A stretch of 46,553 nucleotides of DNA from Actinomycetes bacterium (GTDB lineage: Bacteria > Actinomycetota > CALGFH01): contig DASYUT010000285.1 in assembly GCA_036000965.1 (NCBI GenBank), positions 1 through 46,553 of the forward strand, read 5' to 3'. The notes beneath the pieces were generated by a model. That model searched no databases and had not been told where the DNA came from. It saw only the letters and a list, made by a program, of their open reading frames with translations. The position numbers were made by a program, and so were the translations under genes. Below are positions 4,927 to 43,970 of the stretch, in pieces (the first letter of the stretch is position 1; the number at the start of each line of letters is the position of its first letter).

Positions 4927-6312
4927 ATGAGGGTTCGGACGTCCGTCCTCGTCGTGCTCGCCCTGCTGCTCGCGGCCGCGGGCTGCGGGGGAGGCGCGGA
5001 CGAAGGGAAGGGCAACGCCAAGGAGCTGGTCTTCTGGAACAGCGAGGACAACGCCGTGCGGGTCAAGGCCACCCAGGCGATCCTCGACAGGTTCGCCCAG
5101 CAGACCGGCATCAAGGTCAAGCAGGTGGCGATCGCCGAGGACCAGCTCCAGGCCCAGATCGCCTCGGCCAGCGCGGCTGGCACCCTGCCCGACCTGTTCG
5201 GCTCCCTGAGCCTGGGGTTCGCCCACTCCCTGGCCGCCGACGACTTCGCCGACCCGGACGCCGCCGCCGCCGTGGTCGACCAGCTCGGCCGCGAAACCTT
5301 CTCCGAGCGAGCCCTCAAGTTGGTCGAGGCCGAGGGCAAGCCGGTCGCCGTGCCGAGCGACAGCTGGACGCAGCTGCTGGTCTACCGCAAGGACCTGTTC
5401 GACAAGCAGGGGCTGGCCGCCCCCGACACCTTCGAGGCCATCCAGGCGGGCGCCGCCAGGCTGAAGACCACGGGAATGGCCGGGATCGCGGCCGCGACCA
5501 AGCCGGGCGACGTGTTCACCCAGCAGACCTTCGAGTACTTCGCGGTCGCCGACAACTGCCAGCTCACCGACGACACCGGCAAGGTCACCCTGGACAGCCC
5601 GGCCTGCCAGAACACCTTCAGGTTCTACACCGACCTGATCCGCAACACCTCGGTCAGGGGCGCCCAGGACGTCGACACCACCCGGGCCACCTACTTCGCG
5701 GGCAAGTCGGCGATGCTGGTCTGGTCGTCGTTCATCCTCGACGAGCTGGCCGGCCTCCGCAGCGACGCGCTGCCGACCTGCGCCGAGTGCAAGAAGGACA
5801 AGAAGTTCCTGTCCAAGAACAGCGGCATCGTGACCGCGGTGAAGGGGCCGGACGCCAGCGAGCCGGCCCAGTACGGCGAGGTCACCTCGTTCGTCATCGT
5901 CAAGGACGGCAACGTCGACGCGGCCAAGCAGCTCGTGCAGTTCATGCTGAACGACGGGTACGTCGACTGGCTCGCGCTGTCCCCGGAGGGCAAGTTCCCG
6001 GTCCGCAAGGGCACCAAGGACGAGCCTGACAAGTTCACAAAGGCGTGGAACGGCCTGAAGACCGGGGTGGACACCAAGGAGCCGCTGTCGGCGAACTACC
6101 CGCCGGAGGTGCTCCAGGCGCTCAGCACCAGCACCGACACGATGAAGCGCTGGGGCTTCGAGCAGGGCCAGGGCAAGCTCGTGGGCGCCCAGCTCGGCGA
6201 GCTGCCGGTCCCCAAGGCCCTGAGCGAGGCCCTGGACGGCAGGACCGACCCGGCCGCGGCCGCCAAGCAGGCCCAGCAGGAGGTGGAGCAGATCGCCGAG
6301 TCGGTGAAGTAG
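4927..6312 (+). CDS. Sugar ABC transporter substrate-binding lipoprotein
   Basis: A 461-residue family 1 (MalE/UgpB-like) extracellular solute-binding protein. It begins with a lipoprotein signal (hydrophobic VLVVLALLLAAAGC, lipid-anchored Cys20). The family features are LVFWNSEDN near the N-terminus, a hinge region with LLVYRKDLFDKQGLAAPDTF, and a C-terminal coiled tail (AAAKQAQQEVEQIAESVK). The ATG at 4927 follows AAGGGAGG by four bases; an upstream in-frame extension lacks a signal peptide. The two permeases follow directly. No ATPase is encoded nearby, which fits actinobacterial importers that use a shared MsiK-type ATPase. The substrate is unknown, probably an oligosaccharide. Confidence 0.92.
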   Translation: MRVRTSVLVVLALLLAAAGCGGGADEGKGNAKELVFWNSEDNAVRVKATQAILDRFAQQTGIKVKQVAIAEDQLQAQIASASAAGTLPDLFGSLSLGFAHSLAADDFADPDAAAAVVDQLGRETFSERALKLVEAEGKPVAVPSDSWTQLLVYRKDLFDKQGLAAPDTFEAIQAGAARLKTTGMAGIAAATKPGDVFTQQTFEYFAVADNCQLTDDTGKVTLDSPACQNTFRFYTDLIRNTSVRGAQDVDTTRATYFAGKSAMLVWSSFILDELAGLRSDALPTCAECKKDKKFLSKNSGIVTAVKGPDASEPAQYGEVTSFVIVKDGNVDAAKQLVQFMLNDGYVDWLALSPEGKFPVRKGTKDEPDKFTKAWNGLKTGVDTKEPLSANYPPEVLQALSTSTDTMKRWGFEQGQGKLVGAQLGELPVPKALSEALDGRTDPAAAAKQAQQEVEQIAESVK

Positions 6313-39790: not shown

Positions 39791-39971
39791 CGTGGTCGGT
39801 CAGGCGTTGGTGACTGGTTGGGCGTTGATGACTGGTTGGGCGTTCGTTGGTGGTTGGTCGGGTGGTGGTGGTTGGTCGGGTGGTGGTTGGTCGGGTGGTG
39901 GTGGTCGGTCGGGCGGTGGTGGTCGGTCGGGCGGTGGTGATCGGTGAGGCCTTCGTGGTCGGTCAGGCGTT
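39791..39971. repeat. GGT/TGG-rich tandem array bracketed by 18-bp direct repeats
   Basis: The perfect repeat CGTGGTCGGTCAGGCGTT occurs at 39791-39808 and 39954-39971. Between them are degenerate units of about 15-18 bp (GGTTGGTCGGGTGGT and variants) with strong strand bias: G/T on plus, C/A on minus. Several GGG and many GG tracts could form G-quadruplexes in the non-template strand. The array lies between nurA and herA; its right copy covers the nurA stop. Confidence 0.9.
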
Positions 39972-41006
39972 CAGGGTCAGGTGGAAGTCGCGCAGCACCA
40001 GGTCGACGTCGTCCTCGTCCAGTCCCTCGCGCAGCAGCGCCTCGCGCAGGTCGCGGCGGAGGTCGGCGAGCAGGTGGCCGGGCAGGCACACGACCTGGTG
40101 GACGCGGGCGAGCGGGTAGGGGTAGCCGAGGAACGCCGGGTCGTCGGAGAGCCCGGCGAGCACCGCGAACAGCTCTTCGGCGCTGCGGTGGCCGCGCACC
40201 GCGTCGACCCGGAACGCGTAGGCACCCCGGCGGGCGAGCCGGGCCACGTACACCTCCGAGCGCCAGCTCGTGCCGGCCGCCTCGGCGTCGTCGGTGACCC
40301 GCAGCAGCCAGCGCGCGTCCGGGCCGACCTCGTCCTCGGCCCGGCGCCGCACCCGCAGCACCAGCGGCGCGTACCGGCCCCAGCGCAGCTTGGACGCCTT
40401 GGTCACCCCGACCAGGTCGACCTGACGGTCCAGGGCGAGCTCGTGGATCGGGCCGACGAAGCTGGCGGGCAGGAACGCCCCCGGGTGCAGGCTCCCGTCG
40501 ACCAGCACCACGTCCCCCGGCTCGGCCTCGGCGATCGCCCGCTTGGCCCGGTCCCACTCGGCCAGCTCCCGGAGCACGTCGACGACCCCGCCGAGGTCGG
40601 CCAGCTCCCGCTCACGCACCACCCCGGCCGCGGCCAGCGCGTGGGCGTACTCGGCCTTGGCGTCGCTCTGGTTGAGGGTGCGCAGCACCAGCTCGTCGCG
40701 CTCCTCCCGGAACGTCGTCCGGTCGCGGTGCCAGACGGTCCCGGCCCGGTAGGCGACCACCCAGAAGCTGCGCCCGTTGACCAGGCAGGCCGACCCGCCG
40801 TCGACCGCGGCGGCGCAGACCCCGGGGGCCGGGTCGCTGCCGATCAGGACGATCTCGGCGTCGGCGCGCAACTCGACCGGCCGGTCGTCGTCGGGCACGA
40901 CCGGCTCGTCGGCCGGGTTGTCGACCCGGGTGCCGCCGTCGGCGAGCAGCCGGGTCAGGTGCCCGGCGGCTGTCCGGACCCGGTCGGCGTAGTCCTCGAC
41001 GAGCAC
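39963..41006 (-). CDS. nurA: NurA-type DNA end-resection nuclease
   Basis: A 347-residue NurA domain nuclease. The two catalytic aspartates of the family are visible: Asp69 in AAAVDGGSACLVNGRSF and Asp170 in VVLVDGSLHPGAFLP. Further family features are KASKLRWGRYAPL and FRVDAVRGHRSAEELF near the C-terminus. GTG 41006 is chosen because AGAGGGGAGG precedes it; the frame is open further upstream through a GDPD relic, which is not part of NurA. It works with HerA, whose gene follows 184 bp downstream. Confidence 0.88.
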   Translation of the reverse strand: MLVEDYADRVRTAAGHLTRLLADGGTRVDNPADEPVVPDDDRPVELRADAEIVLIGSDPAPGVCAAAVDGGSACLVNGRSFWVVAYRAGTVWHRDRTTFREERDELVLRTLNQSDAKAEYAHALAAAGVVRERELADLGGVVDVLRELAEWDRAKRAIAEAEPGDVVLVDGSLHPGAFLPASFVGPIHELALDRQVDLVGVTKASKLRWGRYAPLVLRVRRRAEDEVGPDARWLLRVTDDAEAAGTSWRSEVYVARLARRGAYAFRVDAVRGHRSAEELFAVLAGLSDDPAFLGYPYPLARVHQVVCLPGHLLADLRRDLREALLREGLDEDDVDLVLRDFHLTLNA

Positions 41007-41093
41007 GCCTGCCTCCCCTCTGGCGGCCGTTGCCGAACACCAGTTCTGCCCGAGCGTAACCGATGGACATGCTGAGGGGAAGCAGGCGGCAGT

Positions 41094-41234
41094 GTACCGC
41101 CCCAGCATGAGCGCGCCCCAGTCGAAGCTCTGGATCGTGACCCGGTCGAGGAGGCGGGCCTCTCGGACCTGGCGTGCGACGATCTGCACGAACTGCTCGC
41201 GCGGTGCGGTCTCCTGCGGTGCGCCAGCCTCCAC
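41094..41234 (-). pseudogene. Glycerophosphodiester phosphodiesterase fragment
   Basis: About 47 codons match the last core strands of GDPD enzymes (QFVQIVARQVREARLLDRVT, then IQSFDWGALM). The active-site regions are absent and the sequence breaks after LGRYTA. It is in frame with nurA with no stop between, but the nurA ribosome site makes fusion unlikely. Confidence 0.7.
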
Positions 41235-41384
41235 GTCGTTGCTGCAGGCCTGAGCCTGCACGCATGCCCCTACCGCGCGGCGTGCAGGCGGTGACGGCCA
41301 CGTGACGAGCCAGTGACGAACGTCCGCAGCCGGGCGCGCCGCCCGGCTCTGACACGGTGACGCAGCGCCGACCTGCCAGGTGAC

Positions 41385-41479
41385 GCGGTGCCGCATATCG
41401 CCGCATACACCACACCGGGCGCCTCACCGGCTGTGACCAGCGGCTCCAGGTGGCGCCGCAGGGTCGCGTCGGGGCTCAT
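41385..41479 (-). pseudogene. Possible N-terminal fragment of a serine hydrolase
   Basis: From ATG 41479 the sequence MSPDATLRRHLEPLVTAG, EAPGVVYAA resembles the beginning of beta-lactamase-like serine hydrolases and then degenerates into Arg-rich sequence. Evidence is short and the identification weak. The rest of 41235-41384 shows nothing recognisable. Confidence 0.3.
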
Positions 41480-41488
41480 GGCTGCGGC

Positions 41489-42222
41489 TCAGTCGGCCGG
41501 ACCGCCACGCCGGTCGCGCCGGTCGCGCCAGTCGTTGCGGTCGCGGCGCGCCTGCCAGGCCCGGTAGGCGAGCGTGACGGCCAGCAGCCCGAACGAAATC
41601 CAGAGCGCGTAGCGGGAGATGGCCTCGGCGACGTCGACGGCGTGCTGGCCGAGCGAGTACCCCAGCCCGACGAGCAGGCCCATCCATGCCAGCGCCGCAA
41701 CGACGTCGAGGAGCAGGAACGTGACCAGCCGCATGCCGGTCCAGCCGACGACGGCGTGGACGAGCGCGTTGGGCACCGGCAGGAAGTACGCCAGGACGAC
41801 GGCCAGCCAGCCGAACCGGCCGGCCAGCCGCTCCACCCGGTTGGTCAGGCGCGCGGCCTGGGGCTACGGCCCGTGAACAGCTCGATGGCGCGGCGCCCCC
41901 ACAGGCGCCCGGCCCACCAGTACAGTGGGTCGAACTTCATGAGGCCGGGCAACGCGGCGGCCACGGCGAGCGCCAGGAGCACGCGGCCGATGCGGGCGAA
42001 CGCCGCAGCGGTGACGATCGACGAGGTGGAGCCGCTCAGCAGCTCAAGCAGTACCGGCTGGCGGCCGAGCAGCCACGGCTTGGCCGGGATGAGGGCGAGG
42101 TAGTAGAGGCCGCTCAGCGAGATCCCGAACCAGCAGGCCCGGTCGGCGACGCGCGGGCTGCCCACCCAGGGCAGCCACCCGTCGGACCAGGAGTTGCGCC
42201 GCTCCTGCCCGGCCACGTTCAC
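41489..42222 (-). pseudogene. DedA/VTT family membrane protein with frameshift
   Basis: Two frames give one DedA-like protein. The first (42222 to 41845) carries the N-terminal helices (LIPAKPWLLGRQPVLLELLS, ALAVAAALPGLMKFDPLYWW). The second (about 41870 to 41489) continues with RVERLAGRFGWLAVVLAYFL, PVPNALVHAVVGWTG and a basic tail. The one-base shift lies at about 41850-41870, next to a CCCC/GGGG run. DedA proteins are lipid flippases or transport-like. If the indel is a sequencing error the gene is intact. Confidence 0.75.
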
Positions 42223-42329
42223 CGCTCGCCGCCCCCTCCGTCACGATCGCCGCCGACACTACCGTCCCTGCCGTCCTCGCCGATGCCGTCGTCGTGGTCG
42301 GTGGCGTCGTCCTCGCCTCGCGTCGTGGC

Positions 42330-42461
42330 AACGTCCACGCAGTTCGCAGTCTGCAACGCCTGTTGATGAAGTCGGAGGCCGCCCGGCTGTTGGCGGTGCG
42401 CCGGGTCACGCAGGACAACCAGGGCAAGAACACGGCTGGCGTGGACGGGGTGAGGTGGGCG
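42330..42461 (+). mobile_element. Group II intron reverse transcriptase fragment
   Basis: About 44 codons match the N-terminus of intron-encoded LtrA-type proteins: AVRSLQRLLMKSEAARLLAV, then RRVTQDNQGKNTAGVDGV. The catalytic YADD and maturase regions are absent and sequence identity ends at GVDGV. No intron RNA domain was recognised nearby. It is a relic marking past insertion. Confidence 0.75.
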
Positions 42462-42559
42462 GCGGTGTCGTCGGCGGCTTGGTCTCGGTGATCGTGCCGC
42501 CGCTGGTCGCCTCCGTTGTCGCCTGCCGCCCAGACGCAGGCCTGGCGGTCCGAGCGTGG

Positions 42560-42588
42560 TTGAGGGTTCCACGCGAGTGTTGTACATT
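42560..42588 (+). promoter_or_regulatory. Promoter for a probably leaderless HicA-like cassette
   Basis: TTGAGG (42560-42565) and TACATT (42583-42588) are 17 bp apart. The expected start of transcription (about 42594-42597) falls at the ATG at 42598, and no Shine-Dalgarno is present, so the mRNA is probably leaderless. GTTG..CAAC and TGTACA symmetry over the -10 could be an autoregulatory site. Confidence 0.5.
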
Positions 42589-42597
42589 GTCAACAGC

Positions 42598-42831
42598 ATG
42601 CGCGCGAGACACCCTAAACCTGAGGTTGAAGCGGCGCTCCGGGAAGCTGAAGCGGCCGGCTGGAGGGTAAAGGCTACCGTTGCCGGCCACCGGTGGGGCG
42701 TCATGCGCTGCCCGGAACACAGCCGGGCCGGCTGCCAAGAATCCATCTGGTCCACTCCAACGAATCCCGGCAACCATGCCAAGCGGCTACGTGCCGCGGT
42801 CCGAACCTGCCCACACCACCGGAAGGAGTGA
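42598..42831 (+). CDS. HicA-like small protein (putative mRNA interferase fold)
   Basis: A 77-residue protein: helix EVEAALREAEAAGWRVK, strand with TVAGHRWGVMRCP, then SIWSTPTNPGNHAKRLRAAV and CPHH. The helix, G-H-x-W strand and terminal helix resemble HicA toxins, where the histidine is catalytic; the extra Cys pairs are unusual. The ATG at 42598 is used because upstream codons lie in the promoter. It is four bases before the HTH gene. HicA-type activity is inferred from pattern only. Confidence 0.65.
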   Translation: MRARHPKPEVEAALREAEAAGWRVKATVAGHRWGVMRCPEHSRAGCQESIWSTPTNPGNHAKRLRAAVRTCPHHRKE

Positions 42832-42835
42832 CCGA

Positions 42836-43453
42836 ATGAGGACCCACGAGTTCACCCTCCTGGTCGAGGGTGCGGATCTACAGAGCGACGCAGCGCAGGA
42901 CGCACTGTTTGAGGCCGGCTGTGACGACGCGACGATCGGGGTGACCGCTGGGGTGCAGCACCTGCACTTCGACCGTGAGGCGCGCTCGCTTGCTGAGGCG
43001 CTGGTAAGTGCAATCACCGCAGTAGAGCAGGCAGTTCCCGGTGTCCGGGTCGTCCGCGTCGCGCCAGACGAGTACGTCACGCTCGCCGAGATCGCCAAGC
43101 GCACTGGCCGCACCCGCGAGAGCGTCCGGCTGCTTGCCACCGGCGACCGTGGCCCGGGCGACTTTCCGCCACCGGCGGCCCGAGCTGAGCAGCGCAACAA
43201 ACTCTGGCGCTGGGCCGAAGTCGCAAGGTGGTTCACCAGCCGACTCGGTGAGACCGTACCCGGCGTGCCCGATGCGGCGCTGTCGGCGGTAAACGGCCTG
43301 CTGCAGGCACGCGCCGCGCTTTCGCAGCTGGATGCCGTTGACCGAGACACGATACTGGCGTTGCAGCCGGCCGTCCGGAGCCAGGTGCTGGAACTCGCCG
43401 CGGCGGTTGGAGCAGCCGAAGTCAAGACTGGAGACCTTGATGCTGCCGCCTGA
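42836..43453 (+). CDS. HTH protein with N-terminal ligand-like domain, partner of HicA-like gene
   Basis: A 205-residue protein. Residues 1-75 form a conserved alpha/beta domain (FTLLVEGADL, DALFEAGCDDATIG, LHFDREARSLAEALVSAI). Residues 80-135 form a MerR/phage-type HTH (VTLAEIAKRTGRTRESVRLL, GPGDFPPP, LWRWAEVARWF). The C-terminal 60 residues are helical. The family is widespread but functionally uncharacterised as far as I can tell. GGAAGGAG precedes the ATG. It could be the antitoxin/repressor of the cassette. Confidence 0.75.
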   Translation: MRTHEFTLLVEGADLQSDAAQDALFEAGCDDATIGVTAGVQHLHFDREARSLAEALVSAITAVEQAVPGVRVVRVAPDEYVTLAEIAKRTGRTRESVRLLATGDRGPGDFPPPAARAEQRNKLWRWAEVARWFTSRLGETVPGVPDAALSAVNGLLQARAALSQLDAVDRDTILALQPAVRSQVLELAAAVGAAEVKTGDLDAAA

Positions 43454-43811
43454 CCTGCACGAGCCATTCGCGAGTGCGGAAGATCGCTCTCACGCCACAC
43501 AGCAGCTCCTTGAGCGGCATCAGCTCCTTGAGGAGCTTCAGCGGCTCACTACGCTGCCGTCGGATCAGTGGCCTCCGGAGCAGATGGAGCGATTTCCCCC
43601 ATCCACGGCAGGCCATCGGGAGCGCTCGGTAGAGCGGCTGGCCCATTGGCGGGCGTTGTTTGCAGACGAGCTGCGGCAGGTCCGCGACACACGAGACGCA
43701 GCCGCACATGGGCGCATCTCCGATGCAGAACTGCGCACCGCTGTCTATCTAGCTGGGCGCCTGCTGGCCGCCGCGTACGGCCGCAGCCTGCATGAGGCGG
43801 ACCCTGTCTGA
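43440..43811 (+). CDS. Small helical protein with HEPN-type RDxxxH motif
   Basis: A 123-residue all-helical protein. The C-terminal part VRDTRDAAAHG followed by AELRTAVYLAGRLLAAAYG fits the HEPN RNase motif R-(N/D/H)-x3-H (Arg85, Asp86, His90) followed by the last helix. The first 50 residues are charged helices. ATG 43440 follows GGAG and overlaps the HTH gene by 14 bases, so it is co-translated. HEPN proteins cut RNA in toxin-antitoxin and anti-phage systems; that role here is inference. Confidence 0.65.
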   Translation: MLPPDLHEPFASAEDRSHATQQLLERHQLLEELQRLTTLPSDQWPPEQMERFPPSTAGHRERSVERLAHWRALFADELRQVRDTRDAAAHGRISDAELRTAVYLAGRLLAAAYGRSLHEADPV

Positions 43812-43853: not shown

Positions 43854-43897
43854 AGGGCTGCGTCCCGTGGAGTGGAGGGCTGCATCCCGTGGAGTGG
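43854..43897. repeat. 22-bp tandem duplication
   Basis: AGGGCTGCGTCCCGTGGAGT plus GG at 43854-43875 is repeated at 43876-43897 with one base changed (CGTCCC to CATCCC). It follows the HEPN-motif gene; the rest of 43812-43970 holds no supported gene. Confidence 0.88.
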
Positions 43898-43970
43898 TGG
43901 AAATGGCCGGCTGGTGGTCAACCGACGTCACCAGCTACACCACGAATCGTGACTTGATTCGTCGGATTGA

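Follow-up and report, generated by a model that had tools for sequence, protein, structure and literature searches.

A HicA-like toxin candidate and a ferredoxin-fold, winged-helix partner behind a conserved palindrome: a probable toxin-antitoxin pair of the PDC-M06 family

Three tightly packed genes are found in the window, the whole 46,553-nucleotide stretch that was analysed (Actinomycetes bacterium, GenBank assembly GCA_036000965.1, contig DASYUT010000285.1, positions 1 to 46,553 of the forward strand). The initial annotation had proposed them as a possible new toxin-antitoxin or defence unit in which two RNases surround one DNA-binding partner. The question raised by this locus is which of the three genes belong together and what they may do. 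Our best reading, held with a probability of about 0.68, is that genes 1 and 2 belong to the PDC-M06 family and make up a type II-like toxin-antitoxin pair, consisting of a HicA-like RNase toxin and an antitoxin-repressor other than HicB, and that gene 3 is a passenger. The features are as follows.

42560..42565, forward strand: probable -35 box TTGAGG, inferred by reading the sequence, 17 bp 5' of TACATT
42578..42595, forward strand: candidate operator TGTTGTACATTGTCAACA, which fits the conserved palindrome TGTTGACAnnTGTCAACA and ends 2 bp 5' of gene 1
42598..42831, forward strand: gene 1, HicA-like toxin candidate, PDC-M06A / PHROG 5923, 77 aa
42836..43453, forward strand: gene 2, antitoxin/autorepressor candidate, PDC-M06B / PHROG 2620, 205 aa
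43440..43811, forward strand: gene 3, HEPN-like orphan, 123 aa, with GGAG 5' of its ATG

Genes 1 and 2 are separated by a 4-bp gap and genes 2 and 3 overlap by 14 bp, in agreement with the three intact, packed genes first described. Their third-position GC (0.69-0.75) is lower than that of the neighbouring genes (0.82-0.95). Directly 5' of the operon, a truncated reverse-transcriptase N-terminus at 42294-42488 (RVT_N, PF13655, 8.5e-21), probably the remnant of a group II intron, bears out the decayed mobile surroundings that had been noted. The reverse strand of the window carries a NurA-domain protein at 39963-41396 (PF09376, 1.2e-6) and a VTT/DedA-like protein at 41489-42222, which appears to lie in two frames (41489-41836 and 41845-42222), apparently owing to a frameshift or an assembly error. 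Just 3' of gene 3, at 43855-43898, the 22-bp unit GGGCTGC[GA]TCCCGTGGAGTGG[AT] occurs twice in tandem, the two copies being nearly identical. No structured RNA or tRNA was found at the locus, and no DNA-level match to the region was found in plasmids.

Gene 1 matched the PDC-M06A model of PADLOC over residues 2-76 (5.6e-23) and was assigned to phrog_5923 in PHROGs. An AlphaFold2 model built with 72 relatives showed an alpha-beta-beta-beta-alpha topology (pLDDT 87), and H31, within the GHRW motif at residues 30-33, was invariant in 72 of 72 sequences. When gene 1 was aligned by hhalign with a profile of 36 HicA sequences drawn from 101 genomes, a probability of 67 and a score of 25.3 were obtained with H31 placed opposite the GSH of HicA, while 100 column-shuffled HicA profiles scored 14.5 or less. 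The catalytic histidine of HicA, a dsRBD-like RNase, lies in beta2 (PMC7180214), and H31 appears from the alignment to correspond to this residue at the start of beta2. Among viral models (BFVD), Foldseek matched gene 1 to HicA-like proteins of Arthrobacter phages (probability 0.98), the better of which gave TM values of 0.50-0.58. A Foldseek search of the PDB gave no significant match for gene 1, and sequence searches for solved relatives gave none that was convincing. Pfam and NCBIfam returned nothing useful for genes 1 and 2; in particular, Pfam HicA_toxin (PF07927) did not match gene 1 at E<=5. Classical HicA is present elsewhere in the same genome as six PF07927 matches, which do not include gene 1. 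The extra cysteines at positions 38, 46 and 71 were likewise seen again; in 62 of 72 sequences each of the four positions C38, C46, C71 and H73 holds Cys or His, and in two the set is missing as a whole, a pattern that suggests a structural metal site, possibly for zinc. By analogy with HicA, gene 1 probably encodes a small HicA-like RNase in which the invariant histidine is catalytic, and the HicA-like reading of the initial annotation, with its G-H-x-W strand, is borne out by the topology, the aligned histidine and the structural neighbours.

Gene 2 matched PDC-M06B over residues 4-140 (2.6e-30) and belongs to phrog_2620, which is labelled excisionase/transcriptional regulator. Its model (pLDDT 92.5) consists of a beta-alpha-beta-beta-alpha-beta domain at residues 1-76, a winged HTH at about 80-140 and C-terminal helices, so that the proposed alpha/beta domain joined to an HTH can now be named as ferredoxin-like plus winged HTH. 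Its best Foldseek matches were ferredoxin-like folds (PII, S6, PstA, ACT). Conservation reaches 94% or more at every position of the motif FEAGCDDA (residues 25-32). HicB was ruled out as an identity for gene 2: hhalign gave 2.4%, and the model has a ferredoxin-like fold instead of the degenerate RNase H fold. Two gene 2 homologues (L026, 2822-3982; L047, 5001-6113) carry C-terminal extensions of more than 200 aa. By eye, the former extension resembles a GIY-YIG nuclease (GVYAFRD...FLYVGKS), with no Pfam call, and the latter has a CxxC-like zinc-ribbon pattern.

A scan of genome contigs yielded 80 loci from at least eight phyla, including Actinomycetota, Chloroflexota, Gemmatimonadota, Acidobacteriota, Pseudomonadota, Planctomycetota, Balneolota/Bacteroidota, Cyanobacteria and others. 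In a set of 96 loci, two entries of which are the window itself, gene 2 homologues were present in 95 and gene 1 homologues in 85; several loci lacking gene 1 start too near a contig end or match gene 2 weakly and in part. Given these dozens of relatives, the reading frames of genes 1 and 2 are more than chance. Gene 1 nearly always precedes gene 2 by a few bases. One locus (L020) has the reverse order, with the gene 1 homologue (5593-5805) directly 3' of gene 2, and one contig (JAKBTL010000087.1; L060 and L061) carries two copies of the pair about 9 kb apart. The pair also occurs in SSU5 and Cyrano, which are SSU5-type phage-plasmids, and plasmid searches found gene 2 homologues in 273 records; the single record examined for gene 1 carried it as well. 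The Cyrano record names the pair HicA/HicB, a label given by its depositors. In an LF82 Cyrano lysogen, both homologues are listed among the genes expressed above the prophage background, with values of 30 and 14 (PMC9928086). The nearest flanking ORFs of the relatives included PADLOC matches to Shedu SduA, type IIG RM, DrmD/DpdE, SoFic and others; as raw counts, these neighbours are only suggestive of a defence-island setting. No other conserved downstream gene was seen beside the pair in the relatives' flanks.

An 18-bp palindrome, TGTTGACAnnTGTCAACA, which is new in this analysis, was found in the 120 bp preceding gene 1. Of 74 upstream regions, 56 contain it with 13 or more of the 16 positions matching; 1110 control windows taken from these loci contain no such match. 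Its sole match in the window is 42578-42595 (0.01 expected), and the perfect half-site arrangement TGTTGNNNNNTGTCAACA occurs once in the 6.47 Mb of the organism's own genome. In many lineages the palindrome lies over a TTGACA-like -35 box, and in Actinomycetota-type members it lies over the -10 box and the start. In the window it covers the likely -10 box TACATT (42583-42588) and stops 2 bp short of the ATG, a placement that would probably leave the toxin message with almost no leader. Such a palindrome is consistent with autorepression of a type II toxin-antitoxin pair, and its binding protein is probably gene 2.

The same palindrome could instead be the site of a mobile-element regulator. 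Gene 2 would then be an excisionase/AlpA-type protein, as the PHROG 2620 label and an AlpA-like HTH match imply, and gene 1, whose dsRBD-like fold is not necessarily catalytic, would be a small co-regulator or an accessory DNA/RNA-binding protein. Some relatives do have an integrase nearby, accounting for 5 of the 145 flanking ORFs, but most copies of the pair have no adjoining integrase, the pair stands alone in the chromosomes of unrelated phyla, and the invariant histidine of gene 1 falls at the HicA catalytic position. We consider this explanation unlikely, if well worth keeping in mind.

Searches of 397 genomes from the phylum, of viral contigs, phages and plasmids, and of the sequence flanking each relative of the pair found no relative of gene 3, and it has no Pfam match. 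Weak matches over the 397 genomes (E 0.002-0.01, several with internal stops) were rejected as being at chance level. Long chance frames are common in DNA of such GC content, and gene 3 could accordingly be an open frame that is no gene at all. This is a rather improbable account, in view of its coding-type codon-position GC (0.80/0.49/0.69), matched to that of gene 2 (0.78/0.51/0.75), its Shine-Dalgarno sequence and its HEPN-like C-terminus. Because its codon-position GC is like that of gene 2 and unlike that of the neighbours, and because GGAG precedes its ATG, gene 3 is probably coding. The RDxxxH motif described earlier is present as RDAAAH at codons 85-90 (43692-43709). A loose Rx4-6H motif, which gene 3 carries, is uninformative, being found in 93% of shuffles, whereas the fuller R[ND]x3-4H[GS] was found in 1.1% of shuffles and is more telling. 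The C-terminus, ELRQVRDTRDAAAHGRISDAELRTAVYLAGRLLAA, aligned with HEPN_Swt1 at an hhalign probability of 38% (score 26.9; 100 shuffles, 19.3 or less), and on these sequence grounds a HEPN-like identity is plausible. Two HEPN_Swt1 domains are encoded elsewhere in the genome.

The idea that gene 2 controls both a HicA-like and a HEPN-like RNase, with gene 3 as a recent functional addition, draws on the translational coupling implied by the 14-bp overlap and GGAG, on the codon composition that gene 3 shares with gene 2 and on its score above shuffles against HEPN_Swt1. Nevertheless, the HEPN profile probability is just 38 and all other loci examined lack gene 3, and we regard a true three-component system as very unlikely. 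Since relatives of gene 3 were found in no collection searched, two RNases around one DNA-binding partner is not a conserved layout; the expected co-occurrence holds for the pair and fails for the triplet. The candidate unit proposed initially therefore stands for genes 1 and 2, and it is not new, being already listed in PADLOC as PDC-M06.

Pairing, folds, the conserved histidine and operator conservation were computed here, and the toxin-antitoxin reading leads to the following hypothesis. Gene 1 would be an RNase toxin acting through its invariant histidine, and gene 2 would probably bind and neutralise it via the highly conserved ferredoxin-like domain. The winged HTH of gene 2, seated on the palindrome 5' of gene 1, would probably keep the operon off. 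Upon loss of gene 2, for example during phage infection or loss of a mobile element, the operon would be derepressed and the toxin freed. The pair may have been spread by mobile elements, possibly protecting them or their hosts, and a role in defence is conceivable. Gene 3 would be a HEPN-like passenger outside the family, acquired locally and translationally coupled. Against the toxin-antitoxin reading count the PF07927 miss, the lack of a PDB match for gene 1, the dissimilarity of gene 2 to HicB and the PHROG 2620 label. A bolder proposal, that one ferredoxin-fold repressor restrains both the HicA-like toxin and the HEPN-like RNase, its N-terminal domain being a new class of antitoxin and a sensor, with a single phage-sensing event on gene 2 freeing both RNases, is a long shot.

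These observations give PDC-M06, which was listed but undescribed, a fold, a likely catalytic residue and a non-HicB antitoxin-like partner, together with an 18-bp candidate operator conserved from Enterobacteria to Actinomycetota. This anatomy and the operator make PDC-M06 open to simple bench tests, and they suggest that HicA-like toxins have had different kinds of antitoxin as partners.

Among known systems, the window pair is a further member of PDC-M06, an existing phage-defence candidate of PADLOC-DB 2.0.0: the A and B models were both matched, and order and spacing are alike, but in the window gene 3 is present in addition and the C-terminus of gene 2 is longer. PMC12988326 traces the PDC set to a 2024 preprint (Payne et al.) and describes most PDCs as unvalidated; our literature search found no published mechanism for PDC-M06 and no paper naming it. 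With the HicAB type II toxin-antitoxin system (PF07927 / HicB), the pair shares a small dsRBD-like toxin with an invariant histidine, encoded 5' of a DNA-binding partner. It differs in that gene 1 is missed by PF07927 and has the Cys/Cys/Cys/His set, and in that gene 2 is ferredoxin-like plus winged HTH, unlike HicB with its degenerate RNase H fold. Because neither PF07927 nor the HicB fold was found, the pair is not classed as HicAB, although it would work in a HicAB-like manner. Gene 3 resembles HEPN_Swt1 (PF18731) in an ELRxVR[ND]xxxAH-like C-terminal motif and the next helix, but is a stand-alone 123-aa orphan under all HMM thresholds. The PHROG 5923 / PHROG 2620 pair of the SSU5-type phage-plasmids (L097, L099), the 'HicA/HicB' of Cyrano, is homologous and has the same palindrome upstream; it is phage-plasmid-borne, about 40% identical and without gene 3.
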